Part shown: positions 5,468 to 14,679 of the stretch, piece after piece
Layout of the letters: each line of letters starts with the position of its first letter
Numbering within the stretch: the first letter of the stretch is position 1
Notes under the pieces: generated by a model
Told to the model about the DNA's origin: nothing
Seen by the model: the letters and a program-made list of their open reading frames with translations, nothing else
Database searches by the model: none
Program-made: the position numbers and the translations under genes
Assembly: GCA_903914415.1 (NCBI GenBank)
Contig: CAIWOY010000235.1
Span: 1 to 42,491, forward strand
DNA length: 42,491 bases
Direction of reading: 5' to 3'
From: an uncultured Phycisphaerales bacterium
Lineage (GTDB): Bacteria > Planctomycetota > Phycisphaerae > UBA1845 > Fen-1342

Positions 5468-6886
5468 TCATAGCGTCGTTGTCCCTTGCGTCGCAAAAAC
5501 GGGCCGCTGCAAGCGGAATTCCTGGAACGACCCGAGCAGCAGCAGGCTCGGCAGCAGCCGCAGCAACGCGGACCCCAGGCACAGCAGCACGAACGGATGC
5601 CCGATGGTCACGCCGGCCACGTGCAGCGGCAGCGGCGTGCACGTGGCGACCAGCGCGGCCCCGAAGGTCCCCACCGCCGTGCCGGCCGCCCCGAACAGCG
5701 CGTTGTAGGCGCTGCAGCGGGCCCGCTTCGGCACGGTGACCACGTCGAAGAGATAGTTCGCGCTGGCGATGCTGAACGCCGACGTGACGATCCCGTCGTA
5801 CGCCTGCGCGATCGCAAACCACCAGAAGTGGTCGGAGACCAGCAGCAGCAGCGGCACCAGCGCCAGGCCGATGCCGCCGATCGCGAGCACCCGCTTGTTG
5901 CCGACGCGGTCCGCCATGTGCCCCCACACGATCGACGAACCGTAGTTTGCCAGCCAGTTGATCGCGCCGATCGCCGCGAACGCCAGCGGGCTGAAGTGCA
6001 GCTCGGCCAGGATGTACCAGAAGAAAAACGGTCCGATGAAGCCCACGCCCGCATTCAGCCCCATGCAGTAGAAAACGAACCGCCCGAAATGCGCCCGCGG
6101 CGCCCGGCGAATGAAATCCAGCAGCGTGAAATGGTCCGAAGGGTGCCGGTGGTACGGCGGCTCGTGCATTTGGTGCAGGTAATAGGCCGAGACCAGCCGG
6201 GCCAGCATCGCCACGGCGAAGACCGTGAGGAACGCGAAGTTCAGGCTGCTGAGGCCCAGATGGGCCAGCCCGGGCCGGTCGCGCCCGTAAGTCACCCACG
6301 CCCCGGCCGCCAGCGACGACACGATCAGACCGGCCCCGATCACCCCGTTCCGCAGCCCGAAGTAACGCCCGCGGCGGTCCGCCGGCACCAGCTCCCCCAT
6401 CATGCTGTTCCACGCGGGCGCGCCGAAGTTCGCGAACCCAATGTACAGCGCGAACGACGCCAGCATCAGCCAGTAGCCGATCGCCGGCGGCAGGAACATG
6501 CCCGCACAAAACGGCACCCACGTCAGCGCCTGCGCCGCCGCCGAACCCGCGCAGAACGGCCGGCGCCGGCCGGCGGCGTCGACGATGTCGGCGGCAAAGC
6601 ACTGCACGACCGCGCCGACCAGCCCCGGCAGGGCGTGCATGCCCGCGATGCGCGTCAGTCCGGCCTGCCCGAGGATGATGAATGCGCTGACATAGCGCTC
6701 CCCCGCCCCCACCATGACCGACCACGCCACGCCGTCCTTGATCGAGATCCACAGCGTCCGATTGAGGACCTGCGGCTCGACGGACTGCGACGCGGGCACC
6801 GACGGCGTCACCGGCGTAACCGGTACAACGGGGGCAACCGGCGCAACCGGCGTGCCGTCGCGGCCAACGGCCGACCCTTCCGACAT
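5468..6886 (-). CDS. Major facilitator superfamily (MFS) transporter
   Basis: About 472 residues with around 12 hydrophobic segments. A long MFS-like loop motif, GELVPADRRGRYFGLRNGV, lies after the fourth segment, and YGSSIVWGHMADRVGNKRVL lies in the second half, matching the A-motif-like loops. The N-terminus before the first membrane segment is a low-complexity Pro/Val/Thr run (VAPVAPVVPVTPVTPSVP) encoded by short near-repeats (about 6790-6855). I chose the ATG at 6884-6886 because GGAG sits five bases upstream. The open frame runs 67 codons further upstream, but that part is Arg-rich, includes a dispersed repeat and looks non-coding. The substrate cannot be told. Confidence 0.85.
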   Translation of the reverse strand: MSEGSAVGRDGTPVAPVAPVVPVTPVTPSVPASQSVEPQVLNRTLWISIKDGVAWSVMVGAGERYVSAFIILGQAGLTRIAGMHALPGLVGAVVQCFAADIVDAAGRRRPFCAGSAAAQALTWVPFCAGMFLPPAIGYWLMLASFALYIGFANFGAPAWNSMMGELVPADRRGRYFGLRNGVIGAGLIVSSLAAGAWVTYGRDRPGLAHLGLSSLNFAFLTVFAVAMLARLVSAYYLHQMHEPPYHRHPSDHFTLLDFIRRAPRAHFGRFVFYCMGLNAGVGFIGPFFFWYILAELHFSPLAFAAIGAINWLANYGSSIVWGHMADRVGNKRVLAIGGIGLALVPLLLLVSDHFWWFAIAQAYDGIVTSAFSIASANYLFDVVTVPKRARCSAYNALFGAAGTAVGTFGAALVATCTPLPLHVAGVTIGHPFVLLCLGSALLRLLPSLLLLGSFQEFRLQRPVFATQGTTTL

Positions 6887-6955
6887 AACCGCTCCGTCCA
6901 GCGCGGAAACACGTATTCTATTCGCTTCCGCCCGCCGTGTGATCGAGCAGCGTCC

Positions 6956-6985
6956 CGCAATCCGAGCCGCGACCGGCAGGGAGCG
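6956..6985 (+). repeat. 30-bp dispersed repeat, copy 1
   Basis: Runs CGCAATCCGAGCCGCG then ACCGGCAGGGAGCG. An identical 30-bp copy in the same orientation is at 22803-22832, where it lies inside a reading frame. This copy is intergenic. Confidence 0.9.
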
Positions 6986-7221
6986 CGGCCTGCAACTGCC
7001 AGTCGGTCTCGCGCGCCAAGACGCCTCCTTGCACCGGTGCGTGATTCCCATCTCGCCCCCCGCCCCCCGGTACGCACGAAGTTCCACTTCGTCCCACGTC
7101 CGCGCGCTCCTTGGCCCCCGTCCCCGCTTCTGCTACGATGCCCTCGCCCGGGTGGGCAATTCGCCAGCCGTTGCCGGGAGCGGGCCGTGTCCGAGCCGCT
7201 GCAATACGACGTGACCTGTAG

Positions 7222-7247
7222 GCTGGGCTGAGTCTTCGAAGCCCAGC
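7222..7247. repeat. Hairpin repeat just upstream of the TIR-WD40-GTPase start
   Basis: Perfect 8-bp arms GCTGGGCT (7222-7229) and AGCCCAGC (7240-7247) with a 10-nt loop, ending eight bases before the ATG at 7256. It resembles short palindromic elements that I associate with planctomycete intergenic DNA. By position it could affect translation initiation of the next gene. Confidence 0.7.
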
Positions 7248-7255
7248 ATCCACCT

Positions 7256-10200
7256 ATGCCCGACTTGCTCACATACGACGTCTTCCTGAGCTACGCCTCG
7301 CCGGACCGCCCGGCCGTGCGCGGCCTGGCCGAGCGCCTCAAAGCGGACGGCCTCCGCGTCTGGTTCGACGACTGGGAAATCAAGGCCGGCGACAACATCC
7401 CGCTCGCGATCTCCCACGGCGTCGAGCAATCGCGCGTCCTCGTGCTCTTCATGACCCCGGCGTTCTTCGCGTCCGAGTGGACGAAGTTCGAGAGCTACTC
7501 GCTGATCTTCCGCGACCCCACGAACCAGGGCCGCCGCTTCATCCCGCTCCTGGCGACCGACTGCCACCTTCCGGTGACCCTGGCCCAGTTCCGCTACATC
7601 GACTGGCGCGGCCAGTCCGACCAAACGTATCAGGAAGTCCTCACGGCCTGCGGCCCGAGTGCGCCTACCGCCCCCGCTCCGCCGCCCGCATCCGGCACCG
7701 CATCCCATCCCGCCCCGCACCGCCCAACTCATCCGCGGCAGCCGCCGAAGACCACGCGCGCCCGAGTCCGGCGGCCCACGGCCCTGATGACGATCGAAGG
7801 TCACGAGAGCATGGTCTTATCCGTCGCGGTGACCCCTGACGGGCGTCGCATCGTCTCGGCTTCCAGCGACGAAACACTCCTGGTATGGGACCTGGACTCT
7901 GGCCGGTTACTCGCCACGCTGCAAGAGGAAGGCATGAGCAATGCCGTCGCCGTGACGCCCGACGGACGCCGTGTCATCTCCGCCCCGTCCAAGTTCACGG
8001 TGTGGGATTTGGACTCAGGTCAGTTGCTCGCGACGTGGGACAGTCACACCGAGTCTGTCCTCTCCCTCGCTGTGACGCCGGATGGGGAGCGCATCGTTTC
8101 AGGCTCGTTTGAGGGCGTGTCGCGGGGATGCGACCCGGAGTCGAGCCCGTTGCGGGTTTGGGACCTGGGGTCGGGGCGGCCACTCGCGAAGTTGGTCGGA
8201 CACGCAGGCTGTGTTAACGCCGTCGCGGTGACGCCGGACGGGCACCGTGTCGTTTCGGGCTCGAACGACCAAACGCTGCGTTTGTGGGAGCTGGAGTCGG
8301 GCCGGCCCCTCGCTACATTGAGAGGACACACGGATGCCGTCACCTCCGTCGTAGCGACGCCCGACGGATGCCGCATCGTGTCGGGCTCATGGGACCACAC
8401 CCTGCGGGTGTGGGACCTGGATTCGGCTCAGCTACTCGCGACGTTGGAAGGGCACACGGGACCCATCAGCTCCGTCGCGGTGACGCCCAATGGGCGCGCG
8501 GTCATTTCCGGTTCATTGGATGAGACGGTCCGGGTGTGGGATCTGCAGTCCGGGCGGTCACTCGCTACGCTGCTCGGGCACGAAGCTCGTGTGAACGCCA
8601 TCGCGGTGACCCCTGACGGGCGCCGCATCATCTCGGGCTCGGATGACAAAACGCTGCGTGTGTGGGACCTCACGGCGATTCTGGATTCCGGCCCAACCGC
8701 GCCTACCCGCCGCTACACGAACGCCAAAGTTGTCCTGGTCGGCGACACTGGCGTGGGCAAGACCGGTCTTTCGCTGCGCCTCTGCCAAGACCGCTTCGAG
8801 GCGACAGAATCGACCCACGGCATGCACATTGCCCGCCTGCCCCTGCCGGCAGAGGGCCACGCCGACGACGACCTGGAGCGTGAAGTCTGGCTCTGGGACT
8901 TCGCCGGCCAGCCTGACTACCGCCTGATCAATCAACTCTATATGGACGAGACCTCGCTCGGCGTGGTGGTCTTCGACCCCCAGGACGACAGTCCCTTTGA
9001 CACGTTGGCCCATTGGTCGCAGGCGCTCGATGCGGCGGTCAAGCACCGCCCACCCAAGTTGCTCGTCGCCGCCCGCTGCGATCGCGGCGGCATCACCGTC
9101 AGCCGCAAACGCTTTGAGCAGTTCTGCCGCGATCACGGCTTCGTGGGCTTGCTCCAGACGGCCGCCAAGACCGCCGACGGCTGCAATGAGCTGAAGAAAG
9201 CCATCGCGGAGCACATCCCCTGGGACCGGCTGCCATGGACGGCCACCGATGCGCTGTTCAAGACGCTGAAGGATGCCATCATTGCGGTGCGCGAAGGCGG
9301 CGGCGTGCTCATCCGCATGTCCGAATTGGGCCAGCGCCTCGAGCTGGCGCTGCCCGGCGTGACCATCGGAGCCGAGGAGCTACGGGCCGTCGTCGGGCTC
9401 ATGCAGGGCCAAGGCGTTATCCAAGAGCTGGACTTCGGCGACTTTGTCCTGCTCCAGCCGGCCGAGATCAACCGTTATGCCTCCGTCATCGTGCGCTCGG
9501 CTCGCGAGCACATGGACGAGATGGGTGCGGTGCCGGAGCGCCAGGTCCTCGATGGCCGCCTGGACTTCAAGGGCATGGAGCGACTCGCGCCCGAAGACGA
9601 ACGCATTCTCCTGCGGGCGATCGTGCAGACGCTTCTGGACCGCGCCTTGTGCCTCCGCGAAGAGACGCCCGCCGGCTCGCTGCTCGTCTTTCCGGCGTAC
9701 TTCAACCGCGACAAGCCCGACCTGCCGGAACATCCCCACGTCTTCGTCACCTACGGCTTTGCGGGCAAGCTCGACGAGATTTACGCGACGCTCGTCGTAC
9801 GCCTCAGCTACTCCGACGGGTTCAAGAAGGACGAGCTCTGGAAGGATGCGGCGGACTTCAAGACACATGGCGGCAAGCGTGTGGGCCTGGCGCTGCGCCG
9901 TAAGGCCGAGGCGCAATCCGAGCTGATTGTCTACTTCGAGCGCGGCGTCCCCGACGACACCAAGGTCACGTTCATCAAGTACGTGCACGAGCACCTGCTG
10001 CGCCGGGCGCAGGAGGGCAGCGTCACGCGCGTGCGGACGTACGTCTGCCCGCATTGCGACACGCCGGTCGAAAACCGCAGGGCCATCGAGATCCGCGTTC
10101 GCGACGGCAAGCGCGACATCCTATGTGCGGCGTGTGAGAAACGCGTGCCGTTGATTGACCTGATCGAGGAGAAGTTCGCGTCCGACGAGTTCCGCCAGAA

Positions 10201-10702
10201 GGTGCGCGAGCTGGACGAGCGCGCCCAGATCAACATCGACAACGAGAGCCGCGAGTTGATCCTGGTCGGACACGCCTTCGCGATCGCCGGCGAAGCCGGC
10301 CAGATCTTCCGCCCCACGCCCAACTCCGACTGGGGCATCGACGGCGAAATCGAGTTCAAGGACGACCGCGCCGAGGCGAGCGGCCAGCGCGTGTACTTGC
10401 AACTGAAGTCCGGCGACTCGTACCTGTACAAACGCCAGCGCGACGACCAGGAAATCTTCACCATCAAGAATCCGCGCCACGCCGAGTACTGGCAGAAGCA
10501 CGCCTACCCGGTGATGCTCGTGATTCGCACCTCGGAGGGCACGATCCGCTGGATGAACGTCACCGAGTACCTCCGCGACTACTTCCAGCAACACGGCAAA
10601 CAGGCCACGCAGATCGTCTTCGCCGGCGAGCCCTTCACCGCCCTCAATCTCGACCGCCGCCGCCGCCGCATCCTCGGCCTCCCCGTCGCCCAAGCCCCCT
10701 GA
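7256..10702 (+). CDS. TIR - seven WD40 - Roc-like GTPase - COR-like - zinc ribbon - DUF4365-like multidomain protein
   Basis: Single 1148-residue signalling/conflict protein. TIR domain about 4-125 (YDVFLSYASPD, VWFDDWEIKAGD), with the likely NADase glutamate E79 at the place expected from the W-x3-E pattern (SEWTKFE). A Pro-rich linker covers about 130-175. Seven WD40 repeats span 180 to about 480, each with VTPDGRRIxSxSxDxTLxVWDLxSG. The Roc-like GTPase spans about 490-660: P-loop GDTGVGKT 496-503, switch II DFAGQ 548-552, and ARCD ending at D609 in place of NKxD. A COR-like region covers about 680-860. The zinc ribbon is C931, C934, C957, C960. The DUF4365-like PD-(D/E)XK fold spans about 985-1140 (SDWGIDGEIE with D1029, then LQLKSG with K1051). 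The likely role is ligand sensing by the propeller, a GTP switch, and NAD cleavage and/or DNA cutting as outputs; this is inferred. It stands alone, with no clear partner genes. The ATG has no strong Shine-Dalgarno sequence. Confidence 0.9.
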   Translation: MPDLLTYDVFLSYASPDRPAVRGLAERLKADGLRVWFDDWEIKAGDNIPLAISHGVEQSRVLVLFMTPAFFASEWTKFESYSLIFRDPTNQGRRFIPLLATDCHLPVTLAQFRYIDWRGQSDQTYQEVLTACGPSAPTAPAPPPASGTASHPAPHRPTHPRQPPKTTRARVRRPTALMTIEGHESMVLSVAVTPDGRRIVSASSDETLLVWDLDSGRLLATLQEEGMSNAVAVTPDGRRVISAPSKFTVWDLDSGQLLATWDSHTESVLSLAVTPDGERIVSGSFEGVSRGCDPESSPLRVWDLGSGRPLAKLVGHAGCVNAVAVTPDGHRVVSGSNDQTLRLWELESGRPLATLRGHTDAVTSVVATPDGCRIVSGSWDHTLRVWDLDSAQLLATLEGHTGPISSVAVTPNGRAVISGSLDETVRVWDLQSGRSLATLLGHEARVNAIAVTPDGRRIISGSDDKTLRVWDLTAILDSGPTAPTRRYTNAKVVLVGDTGVGKTGLSLRLCQDRFEATESTHGMHIARLPLPAEGHADDDLEREVWLWDFAGQPDYRLINQLYMDETSLGVVVFDPQDDSPFDTLAHWSQALDAAVKHRPPKLLVAARCDRGGITVSRKRFEQFCRDHGFVGLLQTAAKTADGCNELKKAIAEHIPWDRLPWTATDALFKTLKDAIIAVREGGGVLIRMSELGQRLELALPGVTIGAEELRAVVGLMQGQGVIQELDFGDFVLLQPAEINRYASVIVRSAREHMDEMGAVPERQVLDGRLDFKGMERLAPEDERILLRAIVQTLLDRALCLREETPAGSLLVFPAYFNRDKPDLPEHPHVFVTYGFAGKLDEIYATLVVRLSYSDGFKKDELWKDAADFKTHGGKRVGLALRRKAEAQSELIVYFERGVPDDTKVTFIKYVHEHLLRRAQEGSVTRVRTYVCPHCDTPVENRRAIEIRVRDGKRDILCAACEKRVPLIDLIEEKFASDEFRQKVRELDERAQINIDNESRELILVGHAFAIAGEAGQIFRPTPNSDWGIDGEIEFKDDRAEASGQRVYLQLKSGDSYLYKRQRDDQEIFTIKNPRHAEYWQKHAYPVMLVIRTSEGTIRWMNVTEYLRDYFQQHGKQATQIVFAGEPFTALNLDRRRRRILGLPVAQAP

Positions 10703-10742
10703 CCCCGCCCCCGCCCGCGAATCCGCCCTCCGTCATTCACTT

Positions 10743-10774
10743 TCCGCCCCTCCGTGCCTTCGTCCCTCCGTCCC
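10743..10774. repeat. Degenerate 8-bp tandem repeat, four units
   Basis: Four consecutive units: TCCGCCCC, TCCGTGCC, TTCGTCCC, TCCGTCCC. Looks like slippage-generated simple sequence. Confidence 0.7.
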
Positions 10775-10977
10775 TGCTTTTTTCCGCCAATCTCCGCTAC
10801 CCGCCGCCAATCTCGCGCAAACCGCCCGCCCCGCCTTGCCCCCGCCCGCCGCTGTGCTAGTATTTCTAGTATGCCCGCTCCGCGCCTCGGCCCCTGGTCC
10901 CTGCGCCCCCTCGGCCCTCCGCCCCTCGCCCCCTGCGCGCGAGTTATCGGAAGAATGCCATTTACGGGGCGCACACT

Positions 10978-11001
10978 CTTGGCATTCTTGGCATCCTTGC
11001 G
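10978..11001. repeat. 9-bp tandem repeat CTTGGCAT[T/C]
   Basis: CTTGGCATT, CTTGGCATC and a partial CTTGCG. A related CTTGGCGGT/CTTGCC pair lies about 60 bases further on (around 11057-11071). Confidence 0.6.
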
Positions 11002-11085
11002 TTTTCACCAGCGCCAGCGGCCTTTTTATCCGGAACCATGCCAACCGCTTGCCACTCTTGGCGGTCTTGCCCCGCGCCGCGTGCG

Positions 11086-11961
11086 CTACCGGCCGGCGGC
11101 CAGCCCCTCGGCGGTCCGCGGGCACGCCAGCACGTTGCAGCGCTCGACCGGCGGCGCCGCGAGCGGCACCAATTCCCCGCGCTCCACGATGCTGTGCAGC
11201 TCGTACCCCCGCTCCGTCAGAAGCTCGCACACCTGCCGGGCCGCGCCGCCCAGCTCGTGCAGGAAGCCGTCGTCCAGCTCGAGAATCAGGAACGGCCGGT
11301 CGCGGTCGAGCAAGCCCCGCATCCCCCGCAGAGCCAGCAGCTCCGCCCCCTCCACGTCGATCTTGACCAGCCGCACGGCGGGCAAGTCGTCCAGCAGCGA
11401 GTCGATCGTCACGCTCGGCACGGTCGTGACGCCGCCGGCCGCGCGGCCCAGGTCGCGAAGCGACGAATACCCAGTGCGTTCCGGCGTGGCCATGAAAAAC
11501 TCGGTCTGCCCGCAGCGGTCCGTGACGGCGGCCCCGTGCACGTCGATGTTCGCGAGCGGGTTCAGCCGCGCGTTGGTCCGCAGGCACGGCAGCGTCTGCG
11601 GCGACGGCTCGAAGGCATGGACGCAGCCGGCGGAGCCGACGAGCCGAGCCGCGACCAGCGTGTAGTAGCCGACGTTGGCGCCGATATCGAGCACGCAATC
11701 GCCGGTCCGCAGCAGATGGATGAAGTGACGCGTGAGCCGCTCGCGCGGGTCGAACCCGTGCACGTAAATCCTGCGCCCGTTCTCGTCGCGCGGGTGCACG
11801 CGCACGTGGAGGTCACCCGCGAACCGCAGCGTCTTCGGCGGCAACGCCGCGAGCGCCGCCTCGTGCTGCTCCAGCCAGCGCACGATCCGCCACCGTCCCG
11901 GCAGCCGGTGCAGGTTCCGCGTGGCCCAGGCCAGCCCTTCGACGACCACCGGCGGCGGCAT
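11086..11961 (-). CDS. FkbM family SAM-dependent methyltransferase
   Basis: 291 residues, normal length for FkbM-type O-methyltransferases. The SAM-binding motif I is VLDIGANVGYYTL (residues 90-102), motif II is HAFEPSPQ (E118), and the KIDVEGAELLAL motif (D202, E204) is diagnostic of the family. Such enzymes commonly O-methylate sugars in surface glycans, which fits the neighbouring glycosyltransferases; the acceptor is unknown. The ATG at 11961 is preceded by GGAG. A palindromic repeat and a tandem array lie directly upstream, so its promoter must lie in or beyond them. It is divergent from the glycosyltransferase gene at 12188. Confidence 0.93.
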   Translation of the reverse strand: MPPPVVVEGLAWATRNLHRLPGRWRIVRWLEQHEAALAALPPKTLRFAGDLHVRVHPRDENGRRIYVHGFDPRERLTRHFIHLLRTGDCVLDIGANVGYYTLVAARLVGSAGCVHAFEPSPQTLPCLRTNARLNPLANIDVHGAAVTDRCGQTEFFMATPERTGYSSLRDLGRAAGGVTTVPSVTIDSLLDDLPAVRLVKIDVEGAELLALRGMRGLLDRDRPFLILELDDGFLHELGGAARQVCELLTERGYELHSIVERGELVPLAAPPVERCNVLACPRTAEGLAAGR

Positions 11962-11975
11962 CGTTTTTCTTCTCC

Positions 11976-12000
11976 ACGTCGGCCACGGGGGGCCGACGCT
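11976..12000 (+). repeat. Palindromic (REP-like) repeat, copy 1
   Basis: GTCGGCC and GGCCGAC arms flank a CACGGGG-type core. The reverse complement is found at 32285-32309 with one mismatch in 25 bases. Its right part is the unit that is expanded in the tandem array beginning at 11991. Confidence 0.85.
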
Positions 12001-12130
12001 ACAGCGCCCGGGCCGAGGCTACAGCGGCCGGGCCGACGCTACAACGGCCGGGCCGACGCTACAACGCCCGGGCCGACGCTACGGCGCCCGGGCCGACGCC
12101 ACAGCGCCCGGGCCGACGCTACGACGCGCC
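11991..12130. repeat. Tandem array of seven 20-bp units
   Basis: The unit GGCCGACGCTACARCGSCCG repeats at 11991, 12011, 12031, 12051, 12071, 12091 and 12111, with few substitutions; the last unit decays. There are no unique spacers, so it is not a CRISPR array. It lies between the divergent FkbM and glycosyltransferase genes. Confidence 0.95.
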
Positions 12131-12187
12131 GCACGACGCGGGCGCACGTTTCATGCCTCCAATCCGTATCGGTCGATAAAACCACCA

Positions 12188-13444
12188 GTGAGCATGCGCG
12201 CCGCCGGAACTCGCGACTTCTACATCGCCAGCCACAGCAACGTGTACGGCTGGGGCGGCGGGCTTGCATTCACGCTCGGGCTCGCCGATGCGTTCCGGCA
12301 GCTCGGGCACACGAGCCTCGTACTCGGCGTCGACGACGCTGCACCCCTGAGCCGGCGTCCTTTCGCGGGACAACGGCTGAATCTGCCCACCGGCGTGCCC
12401 AAAGCCCTCTGGCGCGTGCGCAGTTGGTGCCTGCCGGTGATGCTGGCGCGCTCGCTGCGCCGGCTCCCACCGCCGCGCGTGGCCTTCGTCACCGTAAGCC
12501 CTACCTGGGTCGTCGCGGCCAAGCGCGCCTGGCCCGACGTCCCGGTGGTCTTTGCCTTCGCGTGCCTGCTCAGCAACTGCCTGCCCTTCACCTGGCCCGG
12601 ACGCCGGCCCGCCCGGCTCTGGGCCCGCGTGGACTATCGGGGTATTCAGCGGGCCGAGCAGCTGGCGTTCGCCCAGGCGGACCTGGTTCTCGCCCCGACC
12701 CACCAGAGCATGGACGAGATCGCCGCCTTCGTCCGCCGTCCGGTCGCACGCCTGGAACGCTGTGACTATGGCGTTCGCCCGCTGCCCGGCGCGTCCGCGC
12801 TGCGCACGCTCCAGCGCCAGGCGCTGGGCGCGCGGCCGGACGATTTCCTCGTTGCCGCCATCGGCGTCTGCGACCGCAACAAGGCATTCGACGTGGCCCT
12901 GCGCGCCTGGCCGCAGGTCGATCGCCGGGCCCACCTCCTGATCGTCGGCGACGGCCCGGAGCGGGCAACCCTGGAGCGCCTGACCGAAACGCTCGATCTG
13001 ACCGCCCGGGTCACCTTCGCCGGCGCGCAGCGTGACATGGCTGCGTGGTACGCCGCCGCGGACTGCGTGCTCTCGACCAGCGGCTACGACACCTTCCCGA
13101 ACGTGCTGCTGGAGGCGCTGGACCTGGGCCGCCCGGTCGTCGTGCCGGAGCACGACCCCCCGCGCGCGTACTCCGGCTTCGCGGAGGTCGTACGCGAACA
13201 TCGCTGCGGGCTGATCTACGACCGCAGCGCGCCCGCGGCACTGGCCGCCTGTCTCAACCGCCTGGCGCGGGACCCGCGCGCGGCGGCGGAACTGGGCGCC
13301 CGCGGCCTTCACACCGCACGCCGCCGCTACCGGTGGAAGCAAGCCGCGGCGCGTATTCTGAACCACTGCGGCGTAGCACCGCCGGCCCCGAAACCCCACC
13401 GCGAGCCCGCGGCATTACAGACGGCGACGGGGGTGCCGGCGTGA
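12188..13444 (+). CDS. GT4-type glycosyltransferase (tandem paralogue A)
   Basis: 418 residues, GT-B fold. The N-terminal glycine-rich acceptor loop is SHSNVYGWGGGLAF. The C-terminal donor domain has GVCDRNKAFDVAL, LLIVGDGPERATLERL, WYAAADCVLSTSGYDTFPNVLLEALDLGRPVV. The last stretch matches the GT4 E-x7-E motif with Asp in the first place (D-TFPNVLL-E). It would transfer a sugar from a nucleotide-sugar donor to the growing lipid-linked glycan in the cytoplasm. GTG at 12188 was chosen because the next, clearly homologous gene also begins GTGAGC; an ATG two codons later is possible. The frame stays open upstream through the 20-bp array, but that part is repeat DNA. Its TGA overlaps the next GTG (GTGA). 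Confidence 0.88.
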   Translation: MSMRAAGTRDFYIASHSNVYGWGGGLAFTLGLADAFRQLGHTSLVLGVDDAAPLSRRPFAGQRLNLPTGVPKALWRVRSWCLPVMLARSLRRLPPPRVAFVTVSPTWVVAAKRAWPDVPVVFAFACLLSNCLPFTWPGRRPARLWARVDYRGIQRAEQLAFAQADLVLAPTHQSMDEIAAFVRRPVARLERCDYGVRPLPGASALRTLQRQALGARPDDFLVAAIGVCDRNKAFDVALRAWPQVDRRAHLLIVGDGPERATLERLTETLDLTARVTFAGAQRDMAAWYAAADCVLSTSGYDTFPNVLLEALDLGRPVVVPEHDPPRAYSGFAEVVREHRCGLIYDRSAPAALAACLNRLARDPRAAAELGARGLHTARRRYRWKQAAARILNHCGVAPPAPKPHREPAALQTATGVPA

Positions 13445-14679
13445 GCATCGCCGGCGAAAAATGCGACGTGTACGTCGGCTGTCACGGCGACCTCGCCGGC
13501 TGGGGCGGCGCGATGATCGCGGGTCGCGGCCTGGCGACGGCGTGCACACGCGCCGGCCTTCGAACGACGCTACTGGGAATGGGCGCGCGCCAGCCCGAGT
13601 CTCCCGTCACCGCCGACGGCATTCCGCAGCGCAACGTGCCCGTGGACCCCCGGCCGCTGCTCTGGCGCGTACACACCTGGTGCCTTCCGCGCATGCTCGC
13701 CCGGCAACTGCGCGCCCAAGCGCCGCCGCGACTGGCGTTCGTCAGCTTCTCGCCATTCTGGACGGTGGCGGCCCGGCAGGCGTGGCCCGCGACGCGCGTG
13801 TTGTTTCGCTATCAAGGCCTTTTGAGCAACTGCCTGCCCTTCACCCGCCCACCCGACGATCGCCCCGGTTTCTGGGAGCGGATCGCGCGGCGCGGCACGC
13901 ACGCGAGCGAGCGCAGCGCCCTGCGGGCGGCGGACTTGGTCCTGGTGCCGACGCAAGAGCACGCCGGCGAAATCGTCGCGTTCGAGCCGGCGGCCCGCGG
14001 ACGCGTGCACGTGTGTCTCGAGGATTGCCGGCGGTACGACACCCCAGCCGCCCTGCGGCAGCAGACGCGCGCCAGCCTCCGCCTCAGCGACACCGAATTC
14101 CTGATCGTGCTCGTCGGCAGTTGCGACCGCAATAAGGCTTTTGACCACGCGCTGCGCGAACTGGCCCAGGTCGAGCCGCGCGGCCGCCTGGCGATCGTCG
14201 GCGACGGCCCGCAGCGCCACGAACTGCACGAGTTGGCAGCCACGCTCGGCCTGACGCAGCGCGTGCACTTCGCCGGCGTACAAGCTGACATGGCCCCGTG
14301 GTACGCCGCCGCCGACTGCGTCATCTCGACCAGCCACTACGACACGTTTCCCAACGTGATCCGCGAAGCGATGGCGTGCGGACGCCCCGTCATCGTCCCC
14401 GCGCATGACCCCCCGCGCACATACGCCGGTATCTCCGGGCTCTTGCGGCGGGAAGGCGGCGGGCTGCTATACGAGCGGCTACGGGGCGGGGCCCTCGCGG
14501 AGCAGCTCCACACGCTGCTCGCGGATCCCACGCGCGCCCGCGAGCTGGGCGCCGCCGCGCGCCGGGTCGCCGAGCGCTTGTTCCGCTGGGACGAGACGCT
14601 CAGCCACGTGTGCAACGCAGCAGCGCATGCGCCAGCCGTCCCCATTCCCAGCGCGCTCGTCCGCGCGGCTGAACCATGA
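13441..14679 (+). CDS. GT4-type glycosyltransferase (tandem paralogue B)
   Basis: 412 residues, clearly homologous along its length to the preceding gene (GWGGAMIAG, WCLPRMLAR, LLSNCLPFTRP, GSCDRNKAFDHAL, AIVGDGPQRHEL, STSHYDTFPNVIREAMACGRPVIVPAHDPPR). The pair probably arose by duplication and may add related sugars in sequence. The donor motif again has Asp for the first Glu of E-x7-E. The GTG start overlaps the upstream stop as GTGA, so the two are translationally coupled. Its last 80 bases overlap the 3' end of the convergent GT2 gene, which is unusual; both frames look genuine. Confidence 0.88.
   Translation: MSIAGEKCDVYVGCHGDLAGWGGAMIAGRGLATACTRAGLRTTLLGMGARQPESPVTADGIPQRNVPVDPRPLLWRVHTWCLPRMLARQLRAQAPPRLAFVSFSPFWTVAARQAWPATRVLFRYQGLLSNCLPFTRPPDDRPGFWERIARRGTHASERSALRAADLVLVPTQEHAGEIVAFEPAARGRVHVCLEDCRRYDTPAALRQQTRASLRLSDTEFLIVLVGSCDRNKAFDHALRELAQVEPRGRLAIVGDGPQRHELHELAATLGLTQRVHFAGVQADMAPWYAAADCVISTSHYDTFPNVIREAMACGRPVIVPAHDPPRTYAGISGLLRREGGGLLYERLRGGALAEQLHTLLADPTRARELGAAARRVAERLFRWDETLSHVCNAAAHAPAVPIPSALVRAAEP

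Follow-up and report, generated by a model that had tools for sequence, protein, structure and literature searches.

A candidate NLR-like immune receptor with a Roc-COR GTPase switch, a fast-diversifying WD40 propeller and TIR and DUF4365 ends in a Phycisphaerales bacterium

Proteins built on a tandem of an AP-GTPase (Roc) and COR, with N-terminal leucine-rich repeats (LRRs) and a swappable C-terminal domain of at least 24 kinds, TIR and caspase among them, were predicted in 2021 to be conflict systems (Burroughs and Aravind 2021, PMC8195603); the main text of that paper does not mention DUF4365. The prokaryotic Roco proteins known up to a 2019 review all have an LRR-RocCOR layout (PMC6337361). 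Here we describe a gene at positions 7256 to 10702 of the window, which is the whole 42,491-nucleotide stretch of DNA analysed (contig CAIWOY010000235.1 of assembly GCA_903914415.1, from an uncultured Phycisphaerales bacterium). Its product shares with the AP-GTPase systems the Roc-COR core, a repeat sensor and a swappable effector, but has no LRRs, carrying instead a WD40 propeller and a second effector, an N-terminal TIR domain, and is a WD40-fronted variant of this known kind of predicted Roc-COR conflict protein. With a probability of roughly 0.6, we read it as a stand-alone immune or abortive-infection receptor resembling nucleotide-binding leucine-rich-repeat (NLR) proteins, in which a Roc-COR GTPase takes the place of the signal transduction ATPase with numerous domains (STAND) and which bears two possible effectors. 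An earlier note on this DNA, made from the letters and their translations, made no mention of the 2021 prediction.

The STAND/NLR anti-phage proteins Avs and bNACHT place sensor, NTPase and effector in a single polypeptide. The window protein follows the same logic without a STAND ATPase, there being no significant STAND match in Pfam (nSTAND3 is sub-threshold over the Roc P-loop, E 0.19). The same Roc-COR tandem is found, by sequence and fold, in the Roco proteins CtRoco, MbRoco2 and LRRK1/2, whereas the WD40 repeats before Roc and the effectors flanking the core set the window protein apart from the Roco proteins reviewed in PMC6337361. The SPARDA, or DUF4365-APAZ, systems (PMC10810196, PMC12205087) have the same DUF4365 PD-(D/E)XK fold with QxK, and SPARTA TIR-APAZ has TIR as the alternative effector; related prokaryotic Argonaute (pAgo) systems include TIR-APAZ, SIR2 NAD(P)ase effectors and double-effector versions, and in SPARDA/TmuRE-Ago DUF4365 is a nonspecific DNase effector released upon target recognition (PMC10810196). 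Unlike these, the window protein has no APAZ and only a linker helix and DUF4365 after COR, its gene neighbours are unrelated and include no short pAgo partner, and its candidate sensor, a propeller, is joined to a GTPase switch. The Podospora hnwd NLRs HET-E and HET-D (PMC1805685, PMC2873952) likewise combine effector, NTPase and a WD40 sensor of near-identical repeats, and share with the window family diversification at the same four top-face positions, but they are fungal, have the order HET-NACHT-WD40 and use HET and a NACHT ATPase where the window protein uses TIR, a nuclease and a Roc GTPase. In the open-licence papers searched, without their supplements, we found none describing the WD40-fronted branch, the TIR...DUF4365 double arrangement or the sensor diversification.

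The open reading frame (ORF) called in the earlier note, 7256..10702 (+), is exact, and the order proposed there, TIR-WD40-Roc-COR-DUF4365, including the doubtful COR and nuclease fold, is borne out by Pfam and structure models. The features of the gene are the following.

7256..10702 (+): complete gene, 1148 aa, ATG start, from the ORF call; a lone unit, with a divergent neighbour on one side and a convergent one on the other
7280..7636 (+): TIR domain, residues 9-127, candidate NADase effector, from Pfam TIR_2 (1.3e-28) and solved bacterial TIR relatives
7490..7492 (+): E79, the conserved TIR Glu, aligned with the Glu of AbTIR-type domains and invariant in 26 homologues
7661..7771 (+): Pro-rich disordered linker, residues 136-172, of low confidence in the model (predicted local distance difference test, pLDDT, about 30)
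7787..8671 (+): seven-bladed WD40 propeller, residues 178-472, candidate sensor and fastest-evolving part, from Pfam WD40, the model and divergence
8723..9217 (+): Roc GTPase, residues 490-654, from Pfam Roc/Ras and invariant residues
9218..10183 (+): COR domain, residues 655-976, from the fold match to Roco COR and the Roc-COR profile match to CtRoco
10046..10135 (+): four invariant Cys, C931-x2-C934 ... C957-x2-C960, predicted metal site ending COR, from invariance in alignments
10184..10294 (+): long helix, residues 977-1013, joining COR to the C-terminal domain in the model
10283..10588 (+): DUF4365, PD-(D/E)XK-type nuclease domain, residues 1010-1111, candidate second effector, from Pfam (3e-21) and SPARDA DUF4365 chains by sequence and fold
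10340..10408 (+): candidate nuclease active site D1029 ... Q1049-x-K1051, with E1031 and E1033 also invariant, from invariance and the QxK motif

Across 26 proteins of the same order, E79, G496, G501, K502, D548, G551, Q552, D609, C931, C934, C957, C960, D1029, E1031, E1033, Q1049 and K1051 are all invariant, in agreement with the residues singled out earlier (E79, K502, D1029 and K1051). A search for homologues with the same order recovered about 29 proteins of unrelated lineages, and the order is therefore no chance fusion. The full-length AlphaFold model has a pLDDT of 80 and a predicted template modelling score (pTM) of 0.58, at which interdomain packing is unreliable; a separate model of residues 655-1148, built from 49 sequences, has a pLDDT of 88 and a pTM of 0.83.

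An indication of a receptor lies in the propeller. The region matches Pfam WD40 with an E of 1.8e-65, and the model closes seven four-stranded blades by a velcro strand at residues 178-181, so that the seven repeats counted earlier do make one full propeller; among its best structural matches are seven-bladed WD40 structures, both prokaryotic and designed. Among 28 same-order proteins, TIR, Roc, COR and DUF4365 have mean pairwise identities of 61-63%, and WD40 one of 42%. The contrast is sharper in close pairs. In the Nostoc pair L056/L057, identity is 96% for TIR, 97% for Roc, 97% for COR and 98% for DUF4365, against 80% for WD40, and nonsynonymous divergence (dN) is 0.136 in WD40 versus 0.010-0.018 in the other domains; the Chlorobiales (Chlorobi) pair L072/L079 is 94% identical in Roc, 96% in COR and 51% in WD40. 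Inside some proteins the blades are near-identical (mean 0.83 in L056 and L059), and blades three and four are identical within each of L056 and L057 while carrying different residues between the two, which is a mark of concerted evolution.

The WD40 differences pile up at repeat columns 5, 7 and 23 (18/18 versus 30/224). Because these columns were chosen after seeing the data, published hnwd positions were taken as an outside yardstick. In Podospora het-d/het-e, repeat codons 7, 9, 25 and 27 are under positive selection, sit atop the propeller and flank the constrained codons 8 and 26 (PMC1805685, PMC2873952). Given the shared spacing and the constrained neighbours (columns 6 and 24 of the window family, with entropies of 1.0 and 0.5 bits), these four codons probably correspond to columns 5, 7, 23 and 25 here, with a two-residue offset. 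Over 42 repeat columns in 180 pairs with core identity of at least 0.70, divergence at columns 5, 7, 23 and 25 exceeds that at the rest in 178/180 pairs, which are not independent and in some of which the repeat register may blur the alignment; all four columns are within the six most divergent of the 42. The binding face of the propeller diversifies rapidly, and positive selection on its top-face positions is likely. This fast top-face diversification is positive evidence for a receptor role, going beyond the grounds that the earlier note had.

A Chlorobium locus (L067) carries two tandem copies of the gene, at 6597-10046 and 10827-14315, with different propellers, resembling a small receptor array; hot-site divergence between the copies is 0.82, versus 0.33 elsewhere. 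A diversity-generating retroelement was considered as the source of the WD40 variation and is not favoured, the variable residues including Trp and Lys, which lie outside adenine-specific AAY codon changes.

The switch is a Roc-COR GTPase related to human LRRK2. Pfam places Roc/Ras at residues 490-654 (E 1e-19 to 1e-20; Roc 1.2e-19), with G1 and G3 present as the P-loop GDTGVGKT (496-503) and the switch II DFAGQ (548-552), and with D609 and TAAK (635-638); the G4 motif is degenerate, reading ARCD for NKxD, with D609 invariant. The P-loop GTPase recognized earlier by its DFAGQ thus has both a Pfam Roc match and invariant K502, D548 and Q552. For COR, the Pfam model gave no match and a COR-only profile (48 sequences) found no Roco chain. 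A Roc-COR profile, by comparison, gives an alignment spanning Roc and COR of C. tepidum Roco (3dpu, 6hlu), and the top Foldseek matches to the model of residues 655-1148 are CtRoco COR and LRRK1/LRRK2 (3dpt_B, E 5.5e-10). The COR part aligns with 3dpu_B (VIA) over 293 residues with a Z of 17.2 and a root-mean-square deviation of 4.3. Despite the misses by Pfam and the COR profile, then, the best fold match identifies the COR-like region as a Roco COR, and the modelled structure confirms a COR placed directly after Roc. The C4 zinc ribbon of the earlier note holds in part: the four Cys are present and invariant, but the label came from the Cys pattern only, and the segment C931-C960 may be a metal-binding elaboration of COR and not a separate domain, since it lies within the stretch of the model that matches Roco COR. 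One relative with a C-terminal TIR (L035, 5215-8181) has a Roc without the P-loop and the switch II Gln and sits on a long branch, perhaps as a dead switch.

At the N-terminal end, Pfam TIR_2 matches residues 9-127 (E 1.3e-28), and the closest solved structures are bacterial TIR domains, the NAD hydrolase AbTIR among them. E79, proposed earlier as the NADase glutamate, aligns with the conserved Glu of solved AbTIR-type domains, so that a TIR fold with a catalytic-type Glu is present and the domain does not appear unfit as a NADase. The TIR end is, on these residues, a probable NAD-destroying enzyme. At least two further large TIR proteins occur in the window genome (G000:C417:32646-33119 and G000:C152:99815-100288), with 35-36% identity over residues 6-158 and open frames of 980 and 1230 aa.

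At the C-terminal end, Pfam DUF4365 matches residues 1010-1111 (E 3e-21). A sequence search with this part matched two SPARDA-type DUF4365 chains (9qbq, 2e-7), SPARDA nuclease chains are among the top Foldseek matches to the model of residues 655-1148, and the DUF4365 part aligns with 9qcc_Y (VIA) over 143 residues with a Z of 12.7 and a root-mean-square deviation of 3.6. The DUF4365-like, PD-(D/E)XK-type C-terminus suspected earlier therefore has a nuclease fold by Pfam, sequence and structure, and its D...QxK is present. In the DUF4365-APAZ nuclease TmuRE, the QxK residues Q62 and K64 are the predicted active site and were mutated for the inactive form, and the TmuRE complex, once activated, degrades DNA nonspecifically (PMC10810196). 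The C-terminal end is probably a DNA-cutting enzyme.

To place the protein in its family, a seven-sequence core alignment was scanned against 84,980 species genomes, which gave 382 loci, of which the best 79 were kept; the architecture counts cover these 79/382 loci and loci from separate genome searches, and classification rested partly on hidden Markov models built from the relatives' own sequences and on motifs read by eye. At least 31 ORFs, the window gene included, have an N-terminal TIR and a C-terminal DUF4365, and they come from many phyla and from methanogenic archaea. A WD40-sized middle segment is present in 29 of the 31. The other two, L066 (7443-10031) and L078 (980-3514), are TIR-Roc-COR-DUF4365 proteins with no propeller; the ORFs directly upstream of them (L066 6685-7527 and L078 3-983) cluster together and might supply a sensor in trans. 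Seven relatives are WD40-Roc-COR-DUF4365 proteins without TIR (L054, L060, L061, L073, L076, L093 and L096), and at three loci TIR is in a separate upstream ORF (L058, L077 and L090). In relatives that fall outside the DUF4365 group, the C-terminal slot is occupied by TIR in 19 rows, cyclase in 5, phosphoesterase with or without CHAT in 4, cyclase-TIR in 3, cyclase-PNP in 1 and SEFIR/TIR in 1. On a core tree made by a quick method from 82 rows, the seven C-terminal types change 10 times, against a shuffled mean of 30.6. The C-terminal effector has been swapped on a conserved WD40-Roc-COR core.

Two relatives are irregular. At L037 (4309-6959, G041), a family-like TIR runs into an unrelated segment, and the overlapping next ORF has the end of COR, the four Cys and DUF4365, so that the middle of such a gene looks to have been replaced. 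An Acidovorax relative of 1595 aa (L106, 1324-6111) has an N-terminal TIR and C-terminal cyclase-like and nucleoside-phosphorylase-like parts, and is possibly a multi-effector member.

Among the kept loci, the cores nearest to that of the window protein are those of Candidatus Methanoperedens nitroreducens (73%) and Methanothrix, with which it falls into a group whose Shimodaira-Hasegawa-like approximate likelihood-ratio test (SH-aLRT) value is 99. A full-length match was found in 1/60 near genomes (G030, same order) and a strong match in 6/392 phylum-sample genomes, the window's own included. Because the nearest core is archaeal and the gene is rare among relatives of the host, this points to movement of the gene between bacteria and archaea, in either direction. 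Distant relatives are on mobilizable or conjugative cyanobacterial plasmids.

In the window, the gene lies 168 bp from a divergent upstream gene for a major facilitator superfamily (MFS) transporter and faces a convergent downstream gene for an FkbM methyltransferase, so that it is likely transcribed alone; a glycosyltransferase, a thioredoxin-like protein, a subtilase and BtpA are encoded by further neighbours. Roc and DUF4365 each match only once in the window genome. An obligate partner gene was sought by clustering neighbours at about 77 loci and rejected, as only local synteny in related species emerged: semialdehyde dehydrogenase genes in Chlorobi and macro-domain genes in three Chlorobiales. 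Nor do the homologues sit in a conserved housekeeping operon around these loci, an arrangement that would have spoken against an immune role. The macro-domain genes are convergent and directly downstream (L072 7430-7948, L079 4793-5305 and L084 10567-10965), which may be plain synteny; macro domains bind ADP-ribose, a product of TIR NADases. When 103 neighbours were scanned with PADLOC, the matches were scattered, with raw counts of at most two members per family. A recent foreign origin was also considered from composition, but the gene's GC content, 0.66, is near that of its neighbours and gives no signal either way.

The intergenic stretch 3' of the gene (10710-11085) is a dispersed repeat with 58 matches in the genome, mostly partial and 71-94% identical, which could promote rearrangement. 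In the same genus, L038 (G001:C96, 2580-3423) has a truncated 3' piece covering residues 1031-1129 at 86% together with the downstream repeat, adjoining an unrelated NTPase-like gene, and is a remnant or a duplicated fragment. In this sister species, G001, matches to the genes flanking the locus run, on either side, up to the end of a contig.

From the domains, their intact and invariant active-site residues, the recurrent order, the swapped effectors, the horizontal spread and the rapid change of the sensor face, we infer what type of ligand is bound, how the switch is thrown, that both enzymes are active and that the outcome is cell death or phage defence. The top face of the propeller would recognise a variable protein derived from, or altered by, an invader, and this recognition would change the nucleotide or oligomeric state of Roc-COR; Roco proteins couple GTP turnover to a monomer-dimer switch (PMC6337361). 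The switched Roc-COR would gather the N-terminal TIR domains, leading to NAD+ consumption, and would release or pair the C-terminal DUF4365, leading to nucleic acid degradation, and the infected cell would be killed or stalled. The existence of TIR-less relatives and of relatives with a C-terminal TIR suggests that each effector can serve alone, and carrying both would therefore give redundancy against phage inhibitors.

Several observations weigh against this receptor. Synonymous divergence (dS) is also raised in WD40, so that exchange between repeats plays a part and selection can be called only likely; one close pair, L124/L125, has no WD40 divergence; and top-face variability is reported generally for highly repetitive prokaryotic WD40 proteins (PMC5587647). 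The scan of a viral contig collection found no homologue, and neither the PADLOC scan nor the neighbour clustering showed enrichment of, or recurrent linkage with, known defence genes. The domain arrangement in the full-length model is, as said, unreliable, and the literature searched holds no experiments on any member of the WD40-fronted branch.

The same propeller could instead read proteins of the host lineage and not of phage, discriminating self from non-self or kin in the manner of HET-D/HET-E and killing after exchange of DNA or cytoplasm. The diversified positions are indeed the hnwd allorecognition positions, and the Chlorobium tandem pair has different propellers; yet we know of no cell fusion of the fungal allorecognition kind in Planctomycetes or methanogens, and with a single Roc match and a single DUF4365 match in the window genome we consider this very unlikely. 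A signalling or developmental Roco, in which TIR is a scaffold, DUF4365 binds nucleic acid or is inactive and WD40 is an adaptor to internal partners, would suit the ordinary metabolic and transport genes around the window gene, and WD40 proteins often serve as adaptors. It is nevertheless an improbable account of a protein whose two active-site sets are invariant across distant lineages, whose distribution is patchy and horizontally spread, archaea included, whose sensor varies on a near-identical core and whose effector is swapped.

In an anti-plasmid or anti-DNA system, the DUF4365 nuclease would be the main effector against invading DNA, and TIR would be secondary or regulatory; the seven relatives without TIR imply that DUF4365 can act alone, and it is invading DNA that activates the DUF4365-APAZ nuclease (PMC10810196). 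However, the propeller, with its diversified face, resembles a platform for binding proteins, and TIR, its Glu invariant, is retained in most of the DUF4365 members collected, so that we give this possibility only a small chance.

Plants and fungi have immune receptors of which this family seems to be a prokaryotic counterpart. More tentatively, it may represent a GTPase-switched class of prokaryotic NLR-like proteins, common to bacteria and methanogenic archaea, in which the WD40 sensor is diversified, by independent arrival, at the positions used in fungal allorecognition, and in which a NADase and a nuclease in one polypeptide deliver two-pronged abortive infection without partner genes. 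The Roc-COR tandem has been studied chiefly for LRRK2 in Parkinson's disease, and little is known of what its bacterial relatives do; in a compact relative encoded by one gene, whose effectors can be identified, NAD+ loss and DNA damage would offer a direct read-out of how a Roc-COR switch acts, and the near-identical Nostoc pair L056/L057 makes sensor specificity testable by propeller exchange. If the sensor reading is true, invader recognition in bacteria and in fungi draws on diversification of the same four residues in each propeller blade.

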